Part shown: positions 3,001-44,561 of the stretch, piece by piece
Position numbering within the stretch: the first letter of the stretch is position 1
Layout of the letters: each line of letters starts with the position of its first letter
NCBI RefSeq assembly: GCF_015265455.1
Contig: NZ_CP054492.1
Span: 1,054,001 to 1,118,000 of the forward strand
Source of the DNA: Candidatus Sulfurimonas baltica
GTDB taxonomy: Bacteria > Campylobacterota > Campylobacteria > Campylobacterales > Sulfurimonadaceae
Direction of reading: 5' to 3'
Length of the DNA: 64,000 bases
Translations under genes and position numbers: made by a program
Notes under the pieces: generated by a model
Told to the model about the DNA's origin: nothing
Databases searched by the model: none
Seen by the model: only the letters and a program-made list of their open reading frames with translations

Positions 3001-3959
3001 CTACTTTAGGTTTTAGCACTATAGAAGAGATGGTTGGTCGTGTTGATCTGTTAAAAGTTGTAGAAGATCCTTTTGCTAAAAAGTTTGATTTTAGTTCAGT
3101 TCTTCACCAAGAAGATGGTGTTAATACTCATCAGCAAAAATCTAATCCTCCATTTGATGATAATGCTTTTGAAAAAGATGTTTTAAAAGAAGCAATGAGT
3201 GCTATTAAACATCCGGAACATCCTATTAGAATAAATAGAGATATTACTAATGAGCATAGAAGTTTTGGTGCACTTATTAGTGGTGAAATAGCTCAATATT
3301 ATGGTGATACTGGACTTAAAGCTGATACTATCGAAATTAATTTAAACGGAATAGCTGGACAAGCTTTAGGCGCATTTTTAATTCCAGGCGTATCAATTTA
3401 CTTGAGTGGTGTAGCAAATGATTATATTGGTAAAGGTATGCATGGCGGTAAAATCATTATTACTTCCAAAAATGAGGGTGAACATTTTAGTGCCGGAGGT
3501 AATACGTGTCTGTATGGAGCTACTGGTGGTAAACTTTATATATCAGGTTGCGTAGGTGAAAGATTTGCTGTACGTAACTCAGGTGCAATCTCTATAGTTG
3601 AGGGTACCGGAGATAATGCTTGTGAATATATGACAGGTGGTATAGTCGTAATTCTTGGGCGCACAGGTATAAACTTTGGTGCTGGTATGACAGGCGGTAT
3701 TGGGTTTGTTTACGATGAAGATCACAGCTTTGTTGAAAATGTTAACCGTGAGCTTGTAGAGTCTATTCGTATTGACACAGATGATGGCGATGAGGCAAGA
3801 CACTATTTGAAAAAATTATTAAAAGACTATGTAGTAGAAACAAGTAGTAAAAAAGCAAAAGATTTGCTTGATAACTTTAGAGTAGAAGTACGTAATTTCT
3901 GGTTGGTAAAACCTAAAAATTTAACTAAATTACCTATGAACTTAGAGATCGGAGATTAA
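1..3959 (+). CDS. gltB: Glutamate synthase large subunit (5' end outside window)
   Basis: Large (alpha) subunit of glutamate synthase, which makes two glutamates from glutamine and 2-oxoglutarate and so assimilates ammonia. The frame is open to the left edge: in-frame codons run from base 3 before the first ATG at 48, so the N-terminal amidotransferase domain is partly missing (about 1,318 residues of a protein usually near 1,480-1,500). Visible: the rest of the amidotransferase domain, the FMN/Fe-S synthase domain with the cysteine pattern in CKMLRICHVNKCSVGIATQ, and the C-terminal Gly-rich beta-helix (repeated GG motifs, residues about 1,100-1,220 of the visible part). It is followed 2 nt later by gltD, so the two form an operon. 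Certain apart from the missing start. Confidence 0.97.
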   Translation, partial: SEHKLVDDRNFYIASMSSTVLSYKGLVMPTHIKEFYKDLQDENFKISFSLFHQRFSTNTLPEWRLAQPFRAVAHNGEINSVEGNRFNVEIKSESIKSDVFTDEEMQRILPILQLNSSDSASADNFFEFLLVNGMDFFKAVRAVIPGAWQNAPHMDPELRAFYEYHSTVFEAWDGPAAFSVTDGRYIGCVLDRNGLRPSKYIVTKDDNLLIASEYGVVDIAEEDIKERGRLQSGEMLGLDLKFGKLLKNDQINDYLKSSNPYMKWLNEHMIYLQEHVEDQYMTNCDYEGQDLINRQRYFNITHEVIEQVIEPMIIEGKEAVGSMGDDTPLAAFSNKQRAFTDFFKQKFAQVTNPPIDPIREKVVMSLNTGFGEIHNILDEIPTHAHRLKAISPIITREKLEVLKSFGDKKSPSYQAFYCNKTFSTAFSGGLKDALETLVENVISSVKNDGTRIVILDDYEFSKDNKIMPMAMVIGRLNIALLKSKIRHLVSMIAVTGEVTDSHGAAVLIGYGASAVYPNLLFATTAEHTDRSKAINVNCHEALKLVHGSLNAGLLKIMSKMGIATIASYRNSGLFDVMGLSREIVKDCFSSSHSALNGLNYDDIDERLTKYHKDAFEESGFNKIFPLNIGGYYKFYNGQEHHDFGPSVIHAIHAVAESGKKQDYDKLRDLVNKRGLKFIRDFFELKSDRKAIDISEVEPKEEIFKRFASAAMSLGSISPEAHETIAMAMNKIGAQSNSGEGGEDSERFGTDRNSKIKQVASGRFGVTPAYLRSAEEIQIKVAQGAKPGEGGQLPGHKVSPLIGKLRHTVPGVTLISPPPHHDIYSIEDLAQLIFDVKQVNPKARVAVKLVSTIGVGTIAAGVAKAYADKIIISGGDGGTGAAPLTSIKFAGNPWELGLSEAHNALKANNLRELVEVQADGGLKTGLDVIKATLLGAESYAFGTGILTIVGCKMLRICHVNKCSVGIATQNEKLRQEFFKGHVDQIVNYFTLMAEDIRSIMATLGFSTIEEMVGRVDLLKVVEDPFAKKFDFSSVLHQEDGVNTHQQKSNPPFDDNAFEKDVLKEAMSAIKHPEHPIRINRDITNEHRSFGALISGEIAQYYGDTGLKADTIEINLNGIAGQALGAFLIPGVSIYLSGVANDYIGKGMHGGKIIITSKNEGEHFSAGGNTCLYGATGGKLYISGCVGERFAVRNSGAISIVEGTGDNACEYMTGGIVVILGRTGINFGAGMTGGIGFVYDEDHSFVENVNRELVESIRIDTDDGDEARHYLKKLLKDYVVETSSKKAKDLLDNFRVEVRNFWLVKPKNLTKLPMNLEIGD

Positions 3960-5391: not shown

Positions 5392-5449
5392 ACAGTCTAC
5401 TTTTTAGCGCAATATTACCCTAAATTCTACAAATAAAGTCAAAATAAGA

Positions 5450-5455
5450 TATAAT
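5450..5455 (+). promoter_or_regulatory. -10 box of the accD operon
   Basis: TATAAT lies about 30 nt before the accD TTG start in a very AT-rich gap, and no clear -35 box is visible. A missing -35 is usual for sigma-70 promoters in Campylobacterota. Assignment is by position and sequence only. Confidence 0.45.
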
Positions 5456-5484
5456 CCCGATTATTTATAATATAAGGATACATT

Positions 5485-6330
5485 TTGAACTTCTTAAGCA
5501 TTTTCTCTTTTAACTCAGAAAAAAAACAACCAATAAAAAGCGAAGCATCATCTCATTGGGTGAAGTGTAAATCTTGTCACTCTTTAATGTTTTACAAAGA
5601 GGTTGAAAAACAAAAACATGTTTGTCCAAAGTGTGGCTACCATATACGTATAGGGGTGCAAGAGCGCATTGAGCTTTTGGCAGACGAGGGTACATTCGTA
5701 GAATATGATGGCAATTTGAAACCAGTTGATCCACTAAAGTTTGTAGACAAAAAGTCTTACAAGCAGAGAATTGAAGAGGCAACAAAAAAGACTGGCAAAA
5801 CTTCATCAGTAGTGAGCGGTGAGTGCGAGATGAATGGTGTACCTGTGCAAATTGTTATATTTGACTTTGCTTTTATGGGTGGCTCATTAGGCTCAGTGGA
5901 GGGTGAAAAAATTGTTCGTGCTATAGAGCGCGCTATTGATAAAAGGCATGGTGTTGTAATCTTAAGTGCTAGTGGCGGAGCTAGAATGCAAGAGAGCACT
6001 TTTTCACTTTTACAGATGAGTAAAACATCTGCTGCCCTTGCTAAATTGGCAAAGCACAACTTACCGTATATTTCTGTTTTAACTGATCCAACTATGGGTG
6101 GAGTTAGTGCATCTTTTGCAACACTCGGAGATATTATTATTGCTGAACCGGGGGCACTTGTAGGTTTTGCCGGACAGAGAGTAATAGAACAAACAATTGG
6201 TTCAGCTCTTCCTGATGGATTTCAAAGAGCAGAGTTTCTCCTTGAAAAAGGTTCTATTGATATGATAGTCAATAGAAATAACTTAAAAAACACTCTCTCA
6301 GACCTTCTTACACTCTTTAAAGTTGCTTAA
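5485..6330 (+). CDS. accD: Acetyl-CoA carboxylase carboxyltransferase subunit beta
   Basis: Beta subunit of the carboxyltransferase that moves CO2 from biotin to acetyl-CoA to make malonyl-CoA, the first step of fatty acid synthesis. 281 residues, normal length. The N-terminal zinc ribbon CKSC...CPKCGYH (about residues 28-54) is characteristic of AccD, followed by the crotonase-like carboxyltransferase fold with SGGARMQES and [12 protein letters not shown]. The start is TTG: AAGGA stands 7 nt upstream and no ATG precedes the zinc finger. The stop overlaps the next gene by one base (TAATG), so translation is coupled. Confidence 0.95.
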
Positions 6331-6893
6331 TGCGACTTTATGCACTTTGCGATCAGAATCTTTTAGATAGAGAAAGTCTCTCTTTAGAAGCATTTGTAGA
6401 ACTTGCAAAAAATCAAAATGCAGAGATTATTCAGTATCGCAACAAAAATGCAGATATAGCGTTTATAAAACAGCAGTTAATTAATATCAGAAAAATTTAT
6501 GACGGATTTTTAATCGTTAATGACTCTTATGAACTCATAGAGTTTTGCGATGGTGTACATGTAGGGCAGGAAGATTTAAAAGCTATAGATGAGAATATAT
6601 TTAAAGCTGTCGAAATATTGAGAAGTGTTATTAAAAAAGACAAAATACTAGGAATATCTACTCATAACGAAGAAGAAGTTTTGCAGGCAAATGATATGGA
6701 TTTAAATTATATTGGTTTAGGGGCTTTTAGAGAGACAAACACTAAAGAGGGCATATCAACAGTTCTAGGAAGTAAGCTTGACGAGATTGCTTCGAAATCA
6801 AAACATTTAGTCGGTGCCATCGGAGGAGTAACACTTGAGGATACTTTTTCACATGTAGCTTATCATGTTGTTGGAAGCGGACTTATAAAGTGA
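6330..6893 (+). CDS. thiE: Thiamine phosphate synthase family protein
   Basis: TIM-barrel protein of the ThiE/TenI family, 187 residues, slightly short for ThiE (about 200-215). Family features seen: an N-terminal YALCDQNLL strand, IQYRNKN near residue 35 (pyrophosphate-side segment), [23 protein letters not shown] near 60-83, [13 protein letters not shown] near 128-140 and AIGGVTLED near 163. ThiE joins the thiazole and pyrimidine halves of thiamine phosphate. Whether this short form is the synthase or a TenI-like paralogue cannot be decided here. Its TGA stop overlaps the GTG start of rlmH. Confidence 0.75.
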
Positions 6894-29687: not shown

Positions 29688-30956
29688 ATGGCAGCATTAA
29701 GACAAAATCAAAGTGTAGAGAACAAGCACAAGCTCTCTAACACACTTCGTAATTGGCTGCCGATTTTGCACTCTAGCTTGAGTGATCTTGGTGAAGCGAT
29801 GTCCCCTTTTATTGATGCCAATCCTGTCGTGGAAGTAAAGTCTGGATACGAAGAAAACTTTGAAAAAAAGATTCCCAAAAAAATAGTTTCAGGTCAGGTA
29901 AACAACTCTAGAACAGAGCAGATAGAAGCATTGACGGTTCAAAAAAAATCTCTTTATGATGTACTTGACGAGCAGTTGGAAGCACCGCTGTTTCCAACGC
30001 CTATATCGCAATCTATTGCCTCATTTGTAGTGGCTAATCTGGATGAAAATGGTTACTATGAAGGTGACAGTGAAGCGTTTTGTAAAATCAAAAATATTGA
30101 TATCTCGGAGTTTGAAAAAGTTCGTTTGAGGTTCTCACATGTAGAGCCAATTGGTATAGCTGCAAAAGATTTGGCAGAGTCATTTATATTTCAGTTGGAG
30201 AGCTCAGACATAAGTGAAGAGGCCTATCCTCTGTGTGTGGAAGTTATTAATAACATGGAGGATATTCACAGCTATTCAAGAAAAGAACATTTCAGTGAAG
30301 TTATGCGTGTTCTTGGAACATTTAAAAATCCTCCGGCAATAGAGTACCAAGAGGATTCAGCTCAGATTATTCCAGATTTGATGATATTTTTTAATGATGA
30401 TGAAGCCATAGAGGTCAAGCTAAATGATGCCTATTATCCGACTATTCTTATAGACACAAGTTATGCGGTTGAGCATGAATTTATTTCGCAAAAAATTAAA
30501 GAGGCAAAGAGCCTTGTTGACGCACTCGACATGAGAAAAGCCACCTTGTATAAAGTGGGGCTTATGATAGTTGAGTATCAGTATGAGTTTTTTACAGGCG
30601 GTGCGATAATGCCTCTTACTCTGAAGACTTTGGCAGATGAGTTTGGACATAACCCATCTACAATCTCAAGAGCAATCGCAAATAAATATATAGCATGTAA
30701 CAGAGGTGTTTTTGCCATGAAAGAGTTCTTTACAACTGCTATTGATGAGGATGTTTCAAATGCGGCAATAAAAGAGTTTTTAGTTACTATAGTCAAGCGG
30801 GAAAACCATAATAAACCACTTAGTGACATGAAACTGCTAGAAATGATTCAAGAAAACTTCAAAGTAGTCATGGTCAGAAGGACTATTGCCAAATATAGAA
30901 AACAGTTAAATATCGCAGGTTCCAGCGAGAGGAAAAAACTCTATTTATTACATTAA
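29688..30956 (+). CDS. rpoN: RNA polymerase sigma-54 factor (copy 1)
   Basis: Sigma-54, 422 residues, in its common location after lptB. N-terminal Region I (activator-interacting, about residues 1-50), core-binding middle, a helix-turn-helix DEFGHNPSTISRAIANKYI near 319-337 and the RpoN box RRTIAKYRKQLNIAGSSERK at the C-terminus. Sigma-54 in Campylobacterota drives flagellar middle genes. This window has a second copy inside the nif region at 36322, so this one is probably the general or flagellar factor. Confidence 0.95.
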   Translation: MAALRQNQSVENKHKLSNTLRNWLPILHSSLSDLGEAMSPFIDANPVVEVKSGYEENFEKKIPKKIVSGQVNNSRTEQIEALTVQKKSLYDVLDEQLEAPLFPTPISQSIASFVVANLDENGYYEGDSEAFCKIKNIDISEFEKVRLRFSHVEPIGIAAKDLAESFIFQLESSDISEEAYPLCVEVINNMEDIHSYSRKEHFSEVMRVLGTFKNPPAIEYQEDSAQIIPDLMIFFNDDEAIEVKLNDAYYPTILIDTSYAVEHEFISQKIKEAKSLVDALDMRKATLYKVGLMIVEYQYEFFTGGAIMPLTLKTLADEFGHNPSTISRAIANKYIACNRGVFAMKEFFTTAIDEDVSNAAIKEFLVTIVKRENHNKPLSDMKLLEMIQENFKVVMVRRTIAKYRKQLNIAGSSERKKLYLLH

Positions 30957-36276: not shown

Positions 36277-36321
36277 CAATTGAGCTGCTCAAGCCTCTTA
36301 TGGTTTGAGTATAATATTCTT

Positions 36322-37560
36322 ATGTCAAGTACATTTAATTTATTTACAACACAAAAACAATCATTACAACTGTCACTAAAACTTTGGTTGCCATTGTTGC
36401 AAGCACAGGTTCAAGATTTAGAAGCAATCTTTAAAGAGCATAGCTTTGATAATCCATTTTTGGAATATAAATCATCTTTTGAATCAAATTACTCAAGTTT
36501 ATCAACATCTGATAATAAAAGTAGTTTTATTGAGAATATGAGTTTATATAAAGAGTCTTTATACGATACTGTTTTAAATCAACTAGATGCTCCACTGTTT
36601 CCAACTCCTTCTTCACAAAAAGTGGCTCATGAAATACTTCAAAATATAAATAGTGATGGGTATTTCGAAGGTGATATAGAACAAATAGCTATTACATGTA
36701 ACACAACAAATCAGTTTGTAGAGAGTGTCAGACAAAGGTTTTCTTATCTTGAACCAAGTGGGATAGGCTCTTTAGATATGATTGAATCATTTGAGTTTCA
36801 ACTATCACAGCTTTTTATAGATGATGAGTTAAATCTTTTTGTTCAAAAAATAATCCAAAATTTAAAACAGATAGATAAGTATCATAAACATCATAGGTTT
36901 ATGGAAGCGACAGAGATTGTAAAAAGGTTTAAATATCCTCCTGCGATTGACTTTCAAGAAGACTCAACATATATAGTCCCAGATTTTTTTGTTGATGTAG
37001 GAGATGACATATCTGTTAAAATAAATCAGAGTTATTATCCAGATATAGTCATTAAAGACCCTTTTAAAACTAAAAATAGTGAGTTAAAAGATAAACTAAA
37101 AGAGGCTAGAGACTTGGTTAACTTACTAGAGCTTAGAAAATCAACTCTTTACAAGCTCGTGCTAATCATAGTAGAAAAACAGATGGGCTTTTTTGTAGGA
37201 AGTGAGCTTAAACCTATGACTATGGCTCAAGTTGCAGATGAGATAGGTTTTGAAGAATCGACCATAAGCAGAGCAGTTTCAAACAAGTACATAAAGTGTG
37301 AGAGAGGAATGTTTTCACTAAAGTCATTTTTTACAAATGCAGTTAGCAAAAACTTGTCATCTGCAGAGATTAAAAACTATATACAAAATCTTATAGAAAA
37401 TGAGAACCATGAAGAGCCACTAACTGACCAAGACTTGGTTGATATGGTGATGCAGAGATACAACATGCAGATGGTAAGACGCACCATAACAAAGTACAGA
37501 AAACTTCTAAATGTTCCATCTTCTAAAGAGAGAAAGAAGATTTATAAGGTTAGAGATTAG
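36322..37560 (+). CDS. rpoN: RNA polymerase sigma-54 factor (copy 2, nif-linked)
   Basis: Second complete sigma-54, 412 residues from the ATG at 36322. Region I is Gln/Leu-rich (TTQKQSLQLSLKLWLPLLQAQ), the helix-turn-helix reads DEIGFEESTISRAVSNKYIK and the RpoN box RRTITKYRKLLNVPSSKERK. It clearly differs from copy 1 at 29688 in both DNA-contacting motifs, yet keeps the shared KESLYD, LDAPLFPTP and PPAIDFQEDS-type blocks. Location inside the nif region suggests a dedicated nitrogen-fixation sigma factor, and no sigma-54 site precedes it. Confidence 0.93.
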   Translation: MSSTFNLFTTQKQSLQLSLKLWLPLLQAQVQDLEAIFKEHSFDNPFLEYKSSFESNYSSLSTSDNKSSFIENMSLYKESLYDTVLNQLDAPLFPTPSSQKVAHEILQNINSDGYFEGDIEQIAITCNTTNQFVESVRQRFSYLEPSGIGSLDMIESFEFQLSQLFIDDELNLFVQKIIQNLKQIDKYHKHHRFMEATEIVKRFKYPPAIDFQEDSTYIVPDFFVDVGDDISVKINQSYYPDIVIKDPFKTKNSELKDKLKEARDLVNLLELRKSTLYKLVLIIVEKQMGFFVGSELKPMTMAQVADEIGFEESTISRAVSNKYIKCERGMFSLKSFFTNAVSKNLSSAEIKNYIQNLIENENHEEPLTDQDLVDMVMQRYNMQMVRRTITKYRKLLNVPSSKERKKIYKVRD

Positions 37561-37669
37561 TTGTACATGTAGAAGAGATTTCTGTCGCTTAAGGGACACT
37601 TTATATTTAAGAATAATAAATCAACAACATAATAATCTGTAATTAAATTGATTAGTTATCACTTTAAAT

Positions 37670-37686
37670 GGAACATTTTATGTGTT
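37670..37686 (+). promoter_or_regulatory. Sigma-54 promoter before the IS-broken gene
   Basis: GGAACATTTTATGTGTT has exact -24/-12 spacing. The next start codon (37768) is about 74 nt past the predicted transcript start, a longer leader than at the nif promoters. It ties the interrupted membrane gene to the nif regulon. Confidence 0.65.
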
Positions 37687-37989
37687 CTATTAATCATTAA
37701 TATTAAGTCTTAGTTCACTATAATGGGAATGAATAAATAGTTATCTACTAAACAATAAAGGAGAATAATGAATAGTTATCTTAAAATAATTGCAGGGATG
37801 TTAGCAACAATAATTCTTGGAGCAATAGGTAGTGGGTTTTGGGAGCGAATCTTATCGCCTGGATTTGACAAGTTACAATATTTTGTTGTAAATAAAATAT
37901 CATTTTTCTATACAGGCTATTTAGACTCCATATACGAGGATGCCAGCACATCTCTAATTAAATATAATGATTCATCTTCAATATTAATT

Positions 37990-39477
37990 ACTCAACTTTC
38001 GCACATAAAACCTAACTCTTTTTGAGTATAAGCACTGAGCACAGCGATAATATTGAGTAAATTTTTATTATCCTTGACAACATTTTGGATTTCAGAGATT
38101 TTTGTCAGTATTTTAATAAAGAGTTGCATTGATATTGCCAGTGTTTCAAGCTCACATTCTAAATCTCTAAAGAGTTCTCCAAGAGTTTGTGGTTCATGCT
38201 TTATACGGTTAATATAACTTACAATGTTATATGCAAACATAGATAGTGTTATTTTTGCAATTAGTGATTCATAGATACGATTTTCTTCTTTTCCAAAACC
38301 GAAGAGGTTTCTGAGATCTTTATAGCCTTGTTCAATATTCCATCTCTTTTTATAAGTTGCTAGAATCTCTTTGCCTGCAATAGTAATATCACTTGAGATA
38401 AAAACTAACAACTCTTTACTTGTGTGTAAAAATACGAGCTTGACTTTACCTAAAACTGCATGTTCTACAATGGCATCGAAATATTTGTACGATATTTTGC
38501 CATGTTTACCACTACTTTTGTGACGATAGTTTTTCATACTGTCATAGATTGCATTCATAGTTTTATGTTTGCCTTTAAAGTTCCAAATAAGTTTATTGTT
38601 TGGAAGTCTTGCTATTACTGGCATACCAAGTTCATTAGCTTGATGTATGAAATTCGGTTTAGCATACCAGCTATCTACGAGCAAGTAATCTGCATCAACA
38701 CCGTTATCCAAAGCTCTTTGCAGCATCTCAATAGCTAGTATATTTTTGCCTTTAGTAATTTCACTCTTTCTCTGATATGCATTACTTCTGTGATGTAGCT
38801 TATTTGTGAACTCTGAAATATCTTTTCTATTGCTACCATTCATTTTTATAGAAAAATCTAATTGAAAAGTTGAATGTGAATCTGCATAATTTAGAGATAC
38901 GATATTGAGCGCATTGATACTCCTATGTTCTTTATTGCTCCAAATATATTTACAGCTTCCCTCAATGTATTTACCTCTCTTAGACTCTACTGTATCGTCA
39001 ATAATGAGTAAGCGATGTTCACCATTTTTATGTAGTGGTTTTATTCTTTGCAAAAGTGCAGTAGTACTTAGCATTAAAAACTTTCGCCAGTTGTAACGAC
39101 TATCTTTGATAAATCTGTAATAGGCATCTTTCCCAAATGCACTATCGCTCTTTTTTATAAATGTTGACTGGCGTTTTTGCATCACTAACATATAAACGAA
39201 GTGTAATATTATTTGAAATGGTGGATAGCCAACATTTCGTTTAATGAAGTTGCTCTGCTTAAGTATTTTTGTGATTTTTATCTCTGTTAGCACTTCAAGT
39301 ATTGGATTCTTTAATATGCTTCTCACTGCAGTTTGTATATAATTGTCAAGTTCCATAAAATAGCCTTGTATTTTTGATGTTGTGGTGACAAAATTATACT
39401 AAAAAGTGGCTATTTATGGGCTTTAATACTCAAATTAAGTTCGTGGATTTAGTGAAATCTATGTGCGAAAGTTGAGT
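37990..39477 (-). mobile_element. IS4-family insertion sequence, complete
   Basis: 1,488-bp element with 17-bp perfect terminal inverted repeats: ACTCAACTTTCGCACAT at 37990-38006 and its reverse complement at 39461-39477. A 5-bp target duplication TAATT flanks it (37985-37989 and 39478-39482). One transposase gene fills it. Intact ends, intact gene and exact target repeat indicate a young, possibly active copy. Confidence 0.93.
37992..39356 (-). CDS. IS4-family DDE transposase
   Basis: 454 residues, full length. DDE catalytic residues are seen in LLIIDDTVESKRG (first D), LLVDSWYAKPN (second D) and the IS4 signature YKKRWNIEQGYKDLRNLFGFGKEENR carrying the catalytic E in the Y-(2)-R-(3)-E-(6)-K pattern. 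The stop codon lies inside the left terminal repeat. No frameshift or internal stop. Confidence 0.92.
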   Translation of the reverse strand: MELDNYIQTAVRSILKNPILEVLTEIKITKILKQSNFIKRNVGYPPFQIILHFVYMLVMQKRQSTFIKKSDSAFGKDAYYRFIKDSRYNWRKFLMLSTTALLQRIKPLHKNGEHRLLIIDDTVESKRGKYIEGSCKYIWSNKEHRSINALNIVSLNYADSHSTFQLDFSIKMNGSNRKDISEFTNKLHHRSNAYQRKSEITKGKNILAIEMLQRALDNGVDADYLLVDSWYAKPNFIHQANELGMPVIARLPNNKLIWNFKGKHKTMNAIYDSMKNYRHKSSGKHGKISYKYFDAIVEHAVLGKVKLVFLHTSKELLVFISSDITIAGKEILATYKKRWNIEQGYKDLRNLFGFGKEENRIYESLIAKITLSMFAYNIVSYINRIKHEPQTLGELFRDLECELETLAISMQLFIKILTKISEIQNVVKDNKNLLNIIAVLSAYTQKELGFMCES

Positions 39478-39881
39478 TAATTATTTATCTTTTAGGATTA
39501 GCCATCTTATTTTTTACATTAAAATATTCAAAAAGTGAAATAAAGGGCATGCAACACTTACAAACTATGTTTAATCATATGCCGACTTTTCAGGGATTAA
39601 TTGCGAGTGCAATCTTGTTAAGTATGACATTTTATTTTGGAATACAAAAAAATTATATTAATGACATACGTTCATATTCTCATCGCAGTATGGAAATATT
39701 AAGACCATATGTTTCAGAAAATGATTATTATTTAATGAAATCAGAATATTTTCAAGTAAAATCAGAAGAAGATTTTAAAAAATTTAATTTAAAACTTACG
39801 AGTCACGCGAGTAAAAACAATGTGAATTTACCAGTTTCAGTGATTTCAAAATAATAAGTATAACAAATACAAGGAGAAATT

Positions 39882-40026: not shown

Positions 40027-40099
40027 GTTATAACAAGTACTTGGATAGAAATAAGTTACCCTAGCGGGTAAACTTATTTCGCAAGACAGTTTGTTAGTT
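40027..40099 (+). other. attC-like recombination site 1
   Basis: GTTATAAC at 40027 and GTTAGTT at 40093 are placed like the outer R'' and R' boxes of integron attC sites. Between them is a long hairpin: 40048-40061 pairs with 40066-40080 (14 bp with one extra T), loop TAGC. The outer arms also pair at AACAA/TTGTT. Total 73 nt. Followed 18 nt later by the next gene start. Matches attC architecture in form, not in exact box consensus. Confidence 0.6.
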
Positions 40100-40116
40100 T
40101 AAGATAAGGAATCAAT

Positions 40117-40290
40117 ATGGGAAATAGGAATTTTAAAGTTTTTTACATCAATAAAGATGATAATAATGTAGATAGTATCATTACTGCAAATTCAAAAACA
40201 ATGGCTATTGAAACATTAAAATTAGAATATTCTGTAAAAGAAATCATATCAGTAGTTGAACTTAAAACATTTCCTAAAGAAGATTATTAA
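40117..40290 (+). CDS. Small cassette gene, unknown
   Basis: 57 residues with an AAGGA ribosome site 5-7 nt before the ATG. Not recognised. The sequence (begins MGNRNFKVFYINKDDNN, ends SVVELKTFPKEDY) looks like a small alpha/beta domain. Its stop is one base before the next ATG (40292), so both are in one cassette between attC-like sites 1 and 2. The short length and lone strand are typical of integron cassette genes. Confidence 0.6.
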   Translation: MGNRNFKVFYINKDDNNVDSIITANSKTMAIETLKLEYSVKEIISVVELKTFPKEDY

Positions 40291-40291
40291 A

Positions 40292-40651
40292 ATGTCATAT
40301 TACACAAGGGTAGGATATAGAGAAGTAGTTGGTGGCTATCAAGTTATTATAGTAGGTGAAGTATACATTACAAAACATTTTAAATTATTTAGTACATCAG
40401 AAGACGCAATTAATTTTATACAAAAAATTATTGCAAAAGAAAATCTTGTTGAAGGCTTTACAGAAGGTGTAAATGACTGTGTCAATATTAATAAACAATA
40501 TTGGTCTAAAGAGGAATCATTATATCACATTCCAAATACACAAATTATTGTAAACAATACATTTAAATTCTTAGAAGATAAATTTTTATGTATTCCTACT
40601 GCAGATGAACAATTAAAGAACAAGACTAACAAAACGCAGGAGCCAACATGA
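40292..40651 (+). CDS. Cassette gene, unknown
   Basis: 119 residues from the ATG right after the previous stop. Not recognised. N-terminal beta-rich segment (YYTRVGYREVVGGYQVIIVGEVYITKHFKLF, about residues 3-33) and a helical remainder; Lys/Asn-rich tail. Its TGA stop falls in the left arm of attC-like site 2, as is common for the last gene of an integron cassette. Confidence 0.6.
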   Translation: MSYYTRVGYREVVGGYQVIIVGEVYITKHFKLFSTSEDAINFIQKIIAKENLVEGFTEGVNDCVNINKQYWSKEESLYHIPNTQIIVNNTFKFLEDKFLCIPTADEQLKNKTNKTQEPT

Positions 40652-40692
40652 ACCCAAGAGTAGGTTCATATTGCTCTCTCTAAACGTTATCT
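40624..40692 (+). other. attC-like recombination site 2
   Basis: GACTAAC at 40624 and CGTTATCT at 40685-40692 bracket a hairpin ATGAACC (40648-40654) / GGTTCAT (40663-40669). Outer arms share TAAC and GAGC pairing with bulges. 69 nt, same layout as sites 1 and 3; the stretch ATTGCTC after the stem is shared with site 3. Confidence 0.55.
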
Positions 40693-40711
40693 ATCATAAA
40701 GGCATAAAATA

Positions 40712-41290
40712 ATGAGCATCGTAGTTTGTGTAGTAAAACATAATAATGAGTTTTGTATAGCAGCAGATAAACGTGCTAAAAAAGATGGAATTATTAATGA
40801 TAACTATCAAAAGCTTTTTAAACTTAAAGAAGATGTTTATTTTGGTATGACCGGTATCGCAGAGGAAGGGCATAAAATTCTAAATAAATTAATGTATTGT
40901 ACTTACCTTCCACCAACAGGATTAATTAAATTTACTGACTTGAATTTTCAACCTAGCAATAAAATGCTAACCATTATGATTGCTGGTAAAAATGAAAAAG
41001 GAGATTTTTTTATTTGGCAAAAAAATTATAAAGGTGAAATTGTGATAGCTGATGTACTTGTGGACAAAATTGCATTTTCACTAAGTACAAATGAGAACTC
41101 TGAATTGTTTAATAATTACTTAAGTTCAGAATTAAAGACAGGTAAATTCATTGAAGAGGCTATTATAAATACAATAAAATTCGCCTCCGAAATAGATGAT
41201 AGCATTTCAAAAGACTTTCATATTGTAATGAATAAGAGTTTGCACGACAGAACAGATTACAAGTACGAGGAGACCAATAGTTTACCCTAG
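40712..41290 (+). CDS. Proteasome-fold (Ntn hydrolase-like) protein in a cassette
   Basis: 192 residues. The first 60 residues (begin MSIVVCVVKHNNEFCIAADKR; later FKLKEDVYFGMTGIAEEG) follow the strand-turn pattern of 20S proteasome beta/HslV-like Ntn hydrolases: an N-terminal strand ending in a hydroxyl or thiol residue, a D-R turn, then a G-x-x-G-x-x-x-D/E helix. Residue 2 is Ser, a possible nucleophile after Met removal. The TAG stop lies in the loop of attC-like site 3. Likely a cassette cargo gene; substrate unknown. Confidence 0.6.
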   Translation: MSIVVCVVKHNNEFCIAADKRAKKDGIINDNYQKLFKLKEDVYFGMTGIAEEGHKILNKLMYCTYLPPTGLIKFTDLNFQPSNKMLTIMIAGKNEKGDFFIWQKNYKGEIVIADVLVDKIAFSLSTNENSELFNNYLSSELKTGKFIEEAIINTIKFASEIDDSISKDFHIVMNKSLHDRTDYKYEETNSLP

Positions 41291-41323
41291 CGGGTAAACT
41301 ATTGCTCACGACAAGCGTTATAT
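41254..41323 (+). other. attC-like recombination site 3
   Basis: AGATTAC at 41254 and AAGCGTTATAT at 41313-41323 flank a perfect 13-bp stem CAATAGTTTACCC (41275-41287) / GGGTAAACTATTG (41292-41304), loop TAGC. The apex TTACCCTAGCGGGTAA is the same as in site 1, and the ending CAAGCGTTA is very like class attC ends. 70 nt. Confidence 0.6.
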
Positions 41324-41348
41324 GAGTATTAAAAAATTTGGAGAATAG

Positions 41349-41584
41349 ATGAAACTATTTTTAACTTTATAGCCAAAGGTGGTAATTTAGTTTATCACTA
41401 TGGCGGTATTGTAAAAAAGCATACACCAGCAAAACAAAAAAGATTAGCAAATATTAAGGAAGTACTGAGTGATATTAAACATAGATGTCACGGTTGCATA
41501 GTTCAAGGTATTCCTAACTATCTTGAAGAAAAAGAAATTTGTTCTCTCATTTTTACTGAGAGAGACAGGCTTAATAGGGAATAA
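41349..41584 (+). pseudogene. Frameshifted small gene after attC-like site 3
   Basis: ATG at 41349 with GGAG upstream opens MKLF and hits a stop after seven codons, while a 75-residue open frame runs on one base out of register from 41351 to 41584 (KGGNLVYHYGGIVKKHTP, then HRCHGCIVQGIPNYLEEKE). One extra T in the run at 41358-41362 would join them into about 79 residues, so this is a one-base deletion, a read error, or slippage. Not recognised. The IS1182-like element begins 13 nt later. Confidence 0.5.
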
Positions 41585-41596
41585 GTATCTCATAAA

Positions 41597-43311
41597 CTGT
41601 AGAGACTGTGAAAGAACTAATCATGTATCAGTAAAAAGTGTCGAGCTTAAGAACATTTTTTAAGGTTCAGGCGGAAAAACTCATTTTTTGACGAAAAAAT
41701 GTCCTAAAAAAGTATAAAACTGCAAGATACTCCGCTATTTCTTGCTTGATACTCTCAAGATTGCCACTTTTTAACGCTTTCATAAGCTTTTGAAACAGTG
41801 CAATGCCAATCAGGTTCAACAATCTTCTGAAATTATAGGTGAGCATAATGAGAGCATTTTCTCCAGCAACCTTTGTTTTACCACGCATCAGAAAGTGGCT
41901 CCAGCCAAGATTTTGTTTGATTGTACCAAAAGGGTGTTCTGCCAGAGCGGCACGCTGTTTAATCATAGTTCTAGCTTCTGGTGTCTGCATCTTTGTACGG
42001 TGTTCGACAATGAGTGCTTCATGCTCCCAGCGCCAGAGACGTTTTGCAGGTGTTTTCTCAGGAAGACACTCTGAACGTAATGGACAGACTTTACATACAG
42101 AGTGGGTACCGAAATACATAAAACGCTTGATACCCTTATTCTCATAAATAGTTTTTTTTCGCTTTAACACTTTGTTGTTTGGGCAGTGATAGCAATCGTT
42201 GGCTTCATCATAATGAAATGCATCACGAGGAAACTTTCCTCTGTCTACTTGCTTTTTTTGCTTATCTTGTATGGGTACATAAACATCTATTCCCTCATCA
42301 ACACATCTCTTAATCTCTTTTGGATTGTAGTAACCTGCATCAGCTACGACTTTGATATGTTTATTGCCTGTAGCTTCTTTAGCCTGGGTTGATAGGGGAT
42401 AGAGTTGATCCAAATCAACTCCTTTGGTGGAGATGTCAGTAGCGACAATAAACTTGTGTTTACCATCAACAGCAATCTGGGCATTATAGGCCATAAGATG
42501 ATGTGCCGGTTTACGCATCAAGGTAGCATCGGGATCACTTTTACAGTATTGTGTTACATTACGCTCTTTCAATGTGTGTAGATTACTGTTCAATTTTGAT
42601 TTATATTTTTTAAGTCGATCCAGATGTTGCTTGTGTACTACTGGTGCTATCTCTTTCTTCTCACAGCTATCGCTATACTCTAGTGAACTTAAATACTCTG
42701 CTATCTTCTCATCAACAGATTCTATATCCTTACGAGTCATTGTTTCAGAGATAAGTTGATTCTTTGATGCATTAGCCCGTAAAAAGGCACCGTCAATGGC
42801 AACGACTTCTCCATCAATCAAATCGACAGAACGGCATAGCATTACAAAGTCACGAAATAATTGTTTCAGTACCTTGGGATTATCTTTGCGAAAGTTAGCA
42901 ATAGTCTTGTATCCAGGAGTAAGTCCAGCACAAAGCCACATCATCTCAACATTGCGTTTAAGTTCACGTTCGAGCTTTCTAGAACTTCGGATACTATTGA
43001 GATATCCATAGAGATAAATCTTCAAAAGTAGTGCTGGATGATATGCAGGTTGACCATCAGAACTACCACTACTTGTAAACACTCCCAAAGTAGCTAAATC
43101 TATACTATCGACATAGCTGTCAATAGCCCTTACTGAATTATCCTCATCAACATACTCATCCAGACTGGGAGGAAATAAGAGTTGTTGATGGCGGTTTAAC
43201 CCCTCTTTGTAATTTGGCATTGTTCAGCCTTTTTCGTTGATATATGATATATCTATTTTAGCTTATTTGTGATTATCACTTGCTTTGGGAGTTCTTTCAC
43301 AGTCTCTGTAG
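41597..43311 (-). mobile_element. IS1182-like insertion sequence
   Basis: Imperfect terminal repeats CTGTAGAGACTGTGAAAGAACT (first 20 of these at 41597-41616) and, inverted, CTACAGAGACTGTGAAAGAA at 43311-43292 bound a single reverse-strand transposase gene. Ends are set by the repeats and could be off by a few bases; no clear target duplication could be read. About 1.7 kb, normal for the family. Confidence 0.8.
41667..43220 (-). CDS. IS1182-family transposase
   Basis: 517 residues. N-terminal DUF772 domain (HQQLLFPPSLDEYVDEDNSVRAID near residues 11-34; YHPALLLKIYLYGYLNSIRSSRKLE near 61-85), then a DDE domain with VVAIDGAFLRANASK, VVADAGYYNPKE and a C-terminal EHPFGTIKQNLGWSHFLMRG carrying the catalytic Glu. 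A zinc-like CPN...C..CPLRSEC set sits near residue 360-385. No internal stop; probably functional. Confidence 0.9.
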   Translation of the reverse strand: MPNYKEGLNRHQQLLFPPSLDEYVDEDNSVRAIDSYVDSIDLATLGVFTSSGSSDGQPAYHPALLLKIYLYGYLNSIRSSRKLERELKRNVEMMWLCAGLTPGYKTIANFRKDNPKVLKQLFRDFVMLCRSVDLIDGEVVAIDGAFLRANASKNQLISETMTRKDIESVDEKIAEYLSSLEYSDSCEKKEIAPVVHKQHLDRLKKYKSKLNSNLHTLKERNVTQYCKSDPDATLMRKPAHHLMAYNAQIAVDGKHKFIVATDISTKGVDLDQLYPLSTQAKEATGNKHIKVVADAGYYNPKEIKRCVDEGIDVYVPIQDKQKKQVDRGKFPRDAFHYDEANDCYHCPNNKVLKRKKTIYENKGIKRFMYFGTHSVCKVCPLRSECLPEKTPAKRLWRWEHEALIVEHRTKMQTPEARTMIKQRAALAEHPFGTIKQNLGWSHFLMRGKTKVAGENALIMLTYNFRRLLNLIGIALFQKLMKALKSGNLESIKQEIAEYLAVLYFFRTFFRQKMSFSA

Positions 43312-43331
43312 ATTTTGGAACTATCTAAAAT

Positions 43332-43362
43332 ATGAGCTATTTATAATTGACAAGTAGCTCAT
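43332..43362. promoter_or_regulatory. Inverted repeat before the Fic gene
   Basis: ATGAGCTA (43332-43339) and TAGCTCAT (43355-43362) form an 8-bp dyad abutting a TATAAT box (43362-43367); a third half-site AGCTCAT lies near 43389. This looks like an operator over the Fic-gene promoter, perhaps for autoregulation. Inferred from sequence only. Confidence 0.45.
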
Positions 43363-43404
43363 ATAATGATACGATTAGAAAACTAATCAGCTCATGAGGT
43401 AAAA

Positions 43405-44535
43405 ATGAAAAAGAAACAACTATGGATTTGGCAACATCCCAATTATCCAAAATTTAATTATAACCTTCGTGAGCTTCTTCCTAAAATCACACAAATATCT
43501 CAGAGTATAGGTCAAGTAAAAGCATTAATCACGCTTCTTGATAAAGATACTCAAACCAACATTAAGATAGATCTTTTTACAAGCGAGATTGTTTCCACTT
43601 CTGCAATAGAGGGGGAACATCTTCAAAGAGAGAGTGTAAGATCTTCAATAAGAAAAAAACTAGATGCAACATTTGACAAAGAATATGACAAGTCTACCCA
43701 TCACACTGACTCTCTCGCGGATATTTTAATGGATACCATACTCAACACAACGCCACTAGAATTAGAGCGTTTACATAAATGGCATATTTCACTTCTTTCC
43801 CAGACTCCAAGCCGTTTTACTAAAATCAAACTGGGAGTGTTTCGTGATTATGATGACATGCAAATTGTCTCAGGCGTAATTGGCAAAGAAAAAGTACATT
43901 TCGTAGGAGTGCCTGCTAAGAGAATAGATAATGATGCGGATGCTTTGTTGAAGTATATTAATACAAGCGATGACGATATCTATATTAAAAGCGCGATAGC
44001 ACATTTATGGTTTGTAACTACTCACCCTTATGATGACGGCAATGGCAGAATGGCAAGAATCATAAGTGATTACATAATCTCAAAAGATTTTGGGATAGAA
44101 TATAAATATTTTTCTATCTCTAGTGCAATAGCAAAAGATCGTAAAAATTATTATGACAAACTAGAGATGTCTCAAAACTTGATAGACAATCCAGATTTAG
44201 ATTGTACAGCTTGGGTATTATGGTATTTAGATAGATTTAACGACTCACTTCAAGAGACACTTGATGCGATCAACAGAGTTATACAAAAAACAAAGTTTTG
44301 GGATAAGGTGCGTCAAATTACTTTAAATCAGCGCCAATTAAAAGTGCTGAGCAAGTTATTAGAGTATAACGAAGGAGAATTTCAAGGCGGGCTTACTACA
44401 AAAAAATATGTTGCAATGACCAAAACATCTTTGGCAACAGCAAAAAGAGATATACAAGAGCTTGTGAAATTGGGTTGTTTACATCAGATTGAAGGTACTC
44501 AAGGAAGAAATATCAGATACGATATTGTCTATTAA
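43405..44535 (+). CDS. Fic family protein with DUF4172 domain
   Basis: 376 residues. An N-terminal DUF4172-type region (WIWQHPNYPKFNYN near residues 8-21) is followed by the inhibitory motif TSAIEGEHL near 61-69 (S/T-x-x-x-E-G) and the Fic active site HPYDDGNGRMAR near 211-222, then a winged-helix-like C-terminus (KYVAMTKTSLATAKRDIQELVKLG). Fic enzymes AMPylate target proteins. The intact inhibitory glutamate predicts self-inhibition. Sits beside the IS1182-like element, an island position. Confidence 0.9.
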   Translation: MKKKQLWIWQHPNYPKFNYNLRELLPKITQISQSIGQVKALITLLDKDTQTNIKIDLFTSEIVSTSAIEGEHLQRESVRSSIRKKLDATFDKEYDKSTHHTDSLADILMDTILNTTPLELERLHKWHISLLSQTPSRFTKIKLGVFRDYDDMQIVSGVIGKEKVHFVGVPAKRIDNDADALLKYINTSDDDIYIKSAIAHLWFVTTHPYDDGNGRMARIISDYIISKDFGIEYKYFSISSAIAKDRKNYYDKLEMSQNLIDNPDLDCTAWVLWYLDRFNDSLQETLDAINRVIQKTKFWDKVRQITLNQRQLKVLSKLLEYNEGEFQGGLTTKKYVAMTKTSLATAKRDIQELVKLGCLHQIEGTQGRNIRYDIVY

Positions 44536-44561
44536 ATAGGGGACATTCCAATATGCCATAA

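Follow-up and report, generated by a model that had tools for sequence, protein, structure and literature searches.

Ordinary integrons take up cassettes through the integrase IntI, which acts on the bottom strand of an attC site in its folded form and recombines it with attI, and the cassettes stack behind attI and its promoter. Groups of attC sites without an integrase are annotated as CALIN, for which IntegronFinder asks for at least two attC sites and no intI nearby; the program performs no attI detection outside class 1 (PMC9024848). Arrays that have been retained after intI was lost by deletion or mutation are well documented beside ilvD in Xanthomonas (PMC12444791). Campylobacterota are counted among the integron-bearing phyla (PMC8618304), and the IntegronFinder results in Table 1 of PMC10295459 include an In0 and a CALIN in Sulfurimonas autotrophica and a CALIN in Sulfurovum NBC37-1.

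The window analysed here, 64 kb in length, corresponds to bases 1054001–1118000 in the genome of a sulfur-oxidizing bacterium, which consists of one contig with 2,737,757 bases. The element that it carries between rpoN and the nif genes is very probably what remains of a chromosomal integron whose integrase gene is now missing. It resembles other CALINs in having at least two attC sites in one orientation, short cassettes of unassigned function, no near intI and a complete integron at another locus of the same genome, but it keeps attI beside the first cassette, a feature that CALIN annotation ignores. As in Xanthomonas (PMC12444791), a cassette array at a chromosomal locus has outlasted its integrase; the present element is however found in another phylum, at the rpoN–nif locus and with no conserved position among the relatives examined, and the genome holds an additional intact IntI. 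The elements of S. autotrophica and Sulfurovum NBC37-1 are of the same kind and from the same genus or order, and are listed in that table without attI or attC anatomy (PMC10295459). Closest of all is the complete integron of the same genome, which has the same attC types and a homologous attI, but with the integrase intact and the attC sites in better repair.

The attC sites

A covariance model, R1, was built from 40 aligned attC sites of integrase-linked regions in the family, 12 of which belong to the two loci with intI in this genome, with the sites in the window excluded. The training candidates were taken from a strict hairpin scan around the integrases of this and other genomes; looser scans gave many false candidates and were dropped in favor of the stricter scan and the covariance model. 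The paired positions of R1 covary, with a score of 0.303, where shuffles gave 0.111 and slid controls no more than 0.163.

Three hairpin sites had been pointed out in an earlier note from inspection of the sequence, and R1 finds all three independently on the + strand. Site 1 (40028–40099, 36.9 bits, E 1.9e-6) is the weakest, with an extra base and broken L-box pairs, site 2 (40624–40692) reaches 48.2 bits and E 2.7e-9, and site 3 (41254–41323) 69.8 bits and E 9.2e-15. Besides these, the only matches of the model in the 64-kb window are weak ones to the reverse strand of the three hairpins. The outer boxes are AAC and GTT in sites 1 and 2, and TAC and GTT in site 3, where the R'' box is TAC, not AAC, and one pair thus is lost. 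The GTT boxes are located at 40093, 40686 and 41317, which bears out the proposed cassette units of 593 and 631 bp. The shared motifs that had been noted are also present, namely the apex TTACCCTAGCGGGTAA in sites 1 and 3, and ATTGCTC and CGTTAT in sites 2 and 3.

The bottom strand of an attC site is established as the one that folds, and the bottom strands of the three sites fold at least as well as the top strands, with z scores against shuffles of -4.3, -3.5 and -6.7 for sites 1, 2 and 3 respectively. Site 3 shows 87–90% identity over 70–75 nt to attC sites adjoining intact integrases in other genomes and to sites in the main integron of its own genome, while sites 1 and 2 have counterparts with 83–85% identity in locus L042 of a relative. 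In the intact integron of the genome itself, the attC sites at 1721547 and 1725000 resemble sites 1 and 3 of the window. The array in L042 also contains an 84-nt attC-like type (AACAAGCGGGAGGAGCG...CGCTGCCGTT), recurring at 2436–2519, 3310–3393, 5406–5489 and 6342–6425, that lies outside the coverage of R1.

Inverted repeats with AAC and GTT edges are easy to spot in AT-rich DNA, and the hairpins could for that reason have been chance structures, terminators of transcription or an ordinary repeat scattered over the genome, with no more than a likeness to attC. The probability of this is now negligible and the idea is considered refuted, because E-values of 9e-15 to 1.9e-6 were obtained with a model blind to the sites, the outer arms match attC sites beside intact intI genes elsewhere, and a search of Rfam, which has no attC family, gave chance matches only and no known RNA family that fits. 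Moreover, the 16-mer of the apex is found in the genome at sites 1 and 3 only, and it is therefore not a dispersed repeat. With the conserved imperfect-palindrome structure recognized by R1, the three sites are, as judged from sequence and predicted folding, attC sites.

Integrase genes and other attC sites in the genome

Integron integrases were searched for with the TIGR02249 model at its curated cut-off of 265 bits. There are 25 matches in the genome, and none of them falls within 1054001–1118000, in agreement with the earlier statement that the window has no integrase gene; an adjacent integrase above the cut-off, as in a complete integron, is thus absent from the window. The search for intI elsewhere, which the earlier note had proposed as a check, gave two loci. 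One encodes an intact integrase of 332 aa at 1711582–1712526 (411 bits) and is accompanied by nine attC sites, the other is a broken integrase gene at 1289402–1290139 with three attC sites. The broken gene is the nearest to the array, at 194 kb, and the intact one is 616 kb away; its product could in principle still act on the sites in the window.

In the whole genome R1 finds 17 attC sites at E<=1e-3, nine at the intact intI, three at the broken intI, three in the window and two single ones. Two of the three sites in the window score below all 12 sites beside the two intI loci. The single sites, at 1463048–1463115 (+) and 934272–934339 (-), are located away from any integrase and are possible stray cassette insertions.

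In the intact integron the distance from attI to the first attC is about 6 kb (genome 1712883–1718702, L033:12884–18703). This stretch contains a restriction-methylase-like gene of 962 aa and frames of 399, 356 (RhuM-like by eye) and 223 aa, and is one cassette of unusual size or else a group of cassettes that lost their attC sites. The intI–attI stretch in the family has several copies of a GGACA..TGTCC palindrome, and also a conserved ATATGACAATTTGTCATAT; these look like operators (L033:12530–12820, L035:8140–8427, and also L011 and L018).

The attI-like site

The chromosomal left flank of the element is rpoN, encoding sigma-54 (36280–37560, +), and the homology to the nearest relative, G098, on this side stops at 37572. 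It is followed by a presumptive remnant of the intI leader, CTGTCGCTTAAGGGACA (37583–37599, +), a short sequence match with 16 of 17 positions identical to CTCTCGCTTAAGGGACA, which in the intact integron is located directly 5' of the intI start codon. An attI-like region then occupies 37587–37743 (+), with the core GAATAAATAGTTA and the crossover point G^TT at 37741–37743. An nhmmer profile made from the attI regions of ten other genomes, none of them that of the window, matches 37589–37743 with E=1e-9, the next best match being 0.68, and it finds both other attI sites of the genome at about 1e-17; in the rpoN–nif regions of seven relatives it gives no match. When the attI regions of other genomes are aligned, the core AATAAATAGTTA proves to be conserved, and TATAATG comes just ahead of it.

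Positions 37608–37744 agree at 128 of 137 bases (93%) with the sequence that separates the broken intI from the first cassette of its array, and 37587–37619 gives a further match. The identity to this sister attI stops just past G^TT, where the first cassette begins, and this is what integrase-mediated insertion would leave. Relative to the leader of the intact integron, about 84 bases are missing between two similar GCT.AA.GGACA repeats. By homology, the region should thus be the attI site of the element, standing at its first cassette. A possible cassette promoter Pc, TTAATA-16-TATAAT, is located at 37697–37724 (+); the count of matches to such a promoter is not above chance, and the TATAATG at the Pc position recurs in the attI regions of relatives. 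The cassettes nearest attI may still be transcribed. The sister attI differs at nine positions, of which five sit in a palindrome of 17 nt that is conserved next to intact intI genes (Fisher p=0.0015, for a test set after the alignment had been viewed), and such wear is as expected once intI is gone.

The element consequently starts 2.4 kb before the first attC reported in the earlier note, which had described a CALIN without integrase. This description holds as far as the definition goes, with three attC sites within 1.3 kb and no intI in the window, but it was incomplete in that the attI-like site at 37587–37743 and the first cassette had been missed. The presence of these two makes the element an integron without intI and not a bare attC cluster.

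The attI-like region also bears on how the cassettes came to be there. Insertion in trans at secondary sites is the usual alternative origin of CALINs, and the resident intact IntI could have inserted the cassettes singly at a non-attI target near rpoN; insertions of this sort could account for the single attC sites at 934272 and 1463048. A region of about 155 bp resembling attI directly before the first cassette would however not be brought by this route, which is thereby largely refuted and which we regard as most improbable.

Cassettes and insertion sequences

In order, the element consists of attI, a first cassette interrupted by an IS4-type element, attC, a cassette, attC, a cassette, attC, and a cassette remnant cut by an IS1182-type element. 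The cassette genes are small and all on the + strand, as had been described, and in this they agree with integron cassettes, which are short promoterless genes of one orientation with their stops near or inside attC. The earlier claim that gene stops fall inside the sites is right for attC 2 and attC 3 (stops at 40651 and 41290) and not for attC 1, where the preceding frame stops at 39854.

The gene of cassette 1 (37768–39854, +) is a membrane-type ORF split by the IS4-type insertion sequence (37990–39477, -), and with this element taken out the reading frame is uninterrupted. The insertion sequence has 18-bp inverted repeats ACTCAACTTTCGCACATA, a target duplication TAATT, and a transposase gene at 37992–39356. 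Cassette 2 encodes 57 aa (40117–40290, +), with no known family, and 119 aa (40292–40651, +). Cassette 3 encodes 192 aa (40712–41290, +), and this protein has a weak match to the proteasome/Ntn-hydrolase family PF00227 (26.6 bits, cut-off 22.4). Against PDB sequences it shows weak proteasome-subunit matches only, at E 0.02 and worse, and its predicted structure has a mean pLDDT of 36. No relatives of it were found in genome contig, plasmid or phage collections, and none of the 119-aa, 192-aa and cassette 1 proteins in 228 family genomes. The remnant of cassette 4 (41324–41601, +) has no intact ORF from a start codon and no attC at its right end, where it is followed by the IS1182-type insertion sequence (41602–43306, -) with 17-bp inverted repeats GAGACTGTGAAAGAACT.

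The IS1182-type element is present in four copies in the genome. The idea that the copy in the window joins two unrelated pieces of DNA was dropped because its flanks carry a 4-bp target duplication, TGTA. A second, nearly identical copy in the same orientation is located about 23 kb away (genome 1120568–1122273); nif genes sit between the two, and recombination could remove the block.

Origin of the element

The evidence is best explained by an integron that has lost its intI, more likely at this place than before arriving here. An attI and at least four cassettes are kept between rpoN and the nif genes, while intI is missing from its start codon on and the rpoN flank runs straight into what would be the intI leader. 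Two insertion sequences, each with a target duplication, sit in the first and the last cassette; they would have come in after the loss of intI, when the attC sites also began drifting. Such decay after the loss of intI is indicated by the TAC box of site 3, the extra base and lost L-box pairs of site 1, the low attC scores and the differences in the palindrome. The array is presumably no longer growing.

The same block might have come from another integron, such as the one with the broken integrase, as a piece that recombined into a variable spot, in which case intI was never here. The interval between rpoN and nifN contains different genes in every relative examined and is thus a site of gene turnover, and the genome does hold a sister attI with 93% identity. 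No relative examined has an integron with intI at this place, and the seven rpoN–nif regions are without attC, so that a deletion in place is not seen directly. Against arrival as a fragment, the left end of the block coincides exactly with the integrase start, which is what a deletion of intI would produce, and the window array and the sister array have no common cassettes. A break at this point could arise by chance, and the position of the start favors loss in place without proving it. We take it as somewhat more likely than not that intI was deleted at this spot, and hold the arrival of a fragment to be a credible if somewhat less expected alternative.

Two other observations concern this region. 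The Fic/DUF4172 gene region at 43314–44550 is 99.8% identical to G098, with 89–96% identity in the adjacent core genes, which probably reflects recent exchange. There are also two distinct rpoN (sigma-54) genes in the nif region, at 29688–30956 and 36280–37560, about 42% identical and 5 kb apart.

Integrons in the Sulfurimonadaceae

An integrase above the cut-off is encoded by 68 of 228 family genomes, and attC sites (R1, E below 1e-3) are present in 162 of the 228. In a phylum-wide sample, 22 of 298 genomes have an integrase above the cut-off, and integrase matches occur in 11 of 58 genera, where the genera were counted at E below 1e-60. One attC type scanned in the contig collection gave mostly records of Sulfurimonas, Sulfurovum and Arcobacter, with a few matches in Bacteroidota and others. 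The view that integron cassettes are scarcely known from this phylum is therefore not supported, with attC sites in most family genomes, an intact integron in this very genome, and In0 and CALIN entries already in Table 1 of PMC10295459. Integrons with a common set of attC types are widespread in the Sulfurimonadaceae, and the present element is a well-supported further example of something common in the family and not a surprise.

The single-contig family genomes that carry any attC divide into ten with an integrase above the cut-off and nine without one (G013, G020, G092, G097, G199, G217, G219, G224 and G226); the latter contain 2 to 21 attC sites, and G020 has a short integrase fragment. 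G199, G224, G226 and G219 are complete genomes with 11 to 21 attC matches and no integrase over the cut-off. As about half of the single-contig genomes with attC thus are without integrase, arrays in this family might routinely outlive their integrases, and may be kept and reshuffled by integrases acting in trans or across cells, under a regulator that would bind the palindrome ATATGACAATTTGTCATAT, kept beside intact intI and worn here; we offer this wider reading as speculative and rather doubtful.

An integron remnant spotted by eye has here been confirmed by independent tests and extended to its attI. With intact, broken-integrase and integrase-less integrons, one genome provides a natural series for integron decay, which R1, the attI profile and the listed coordinates make testable.
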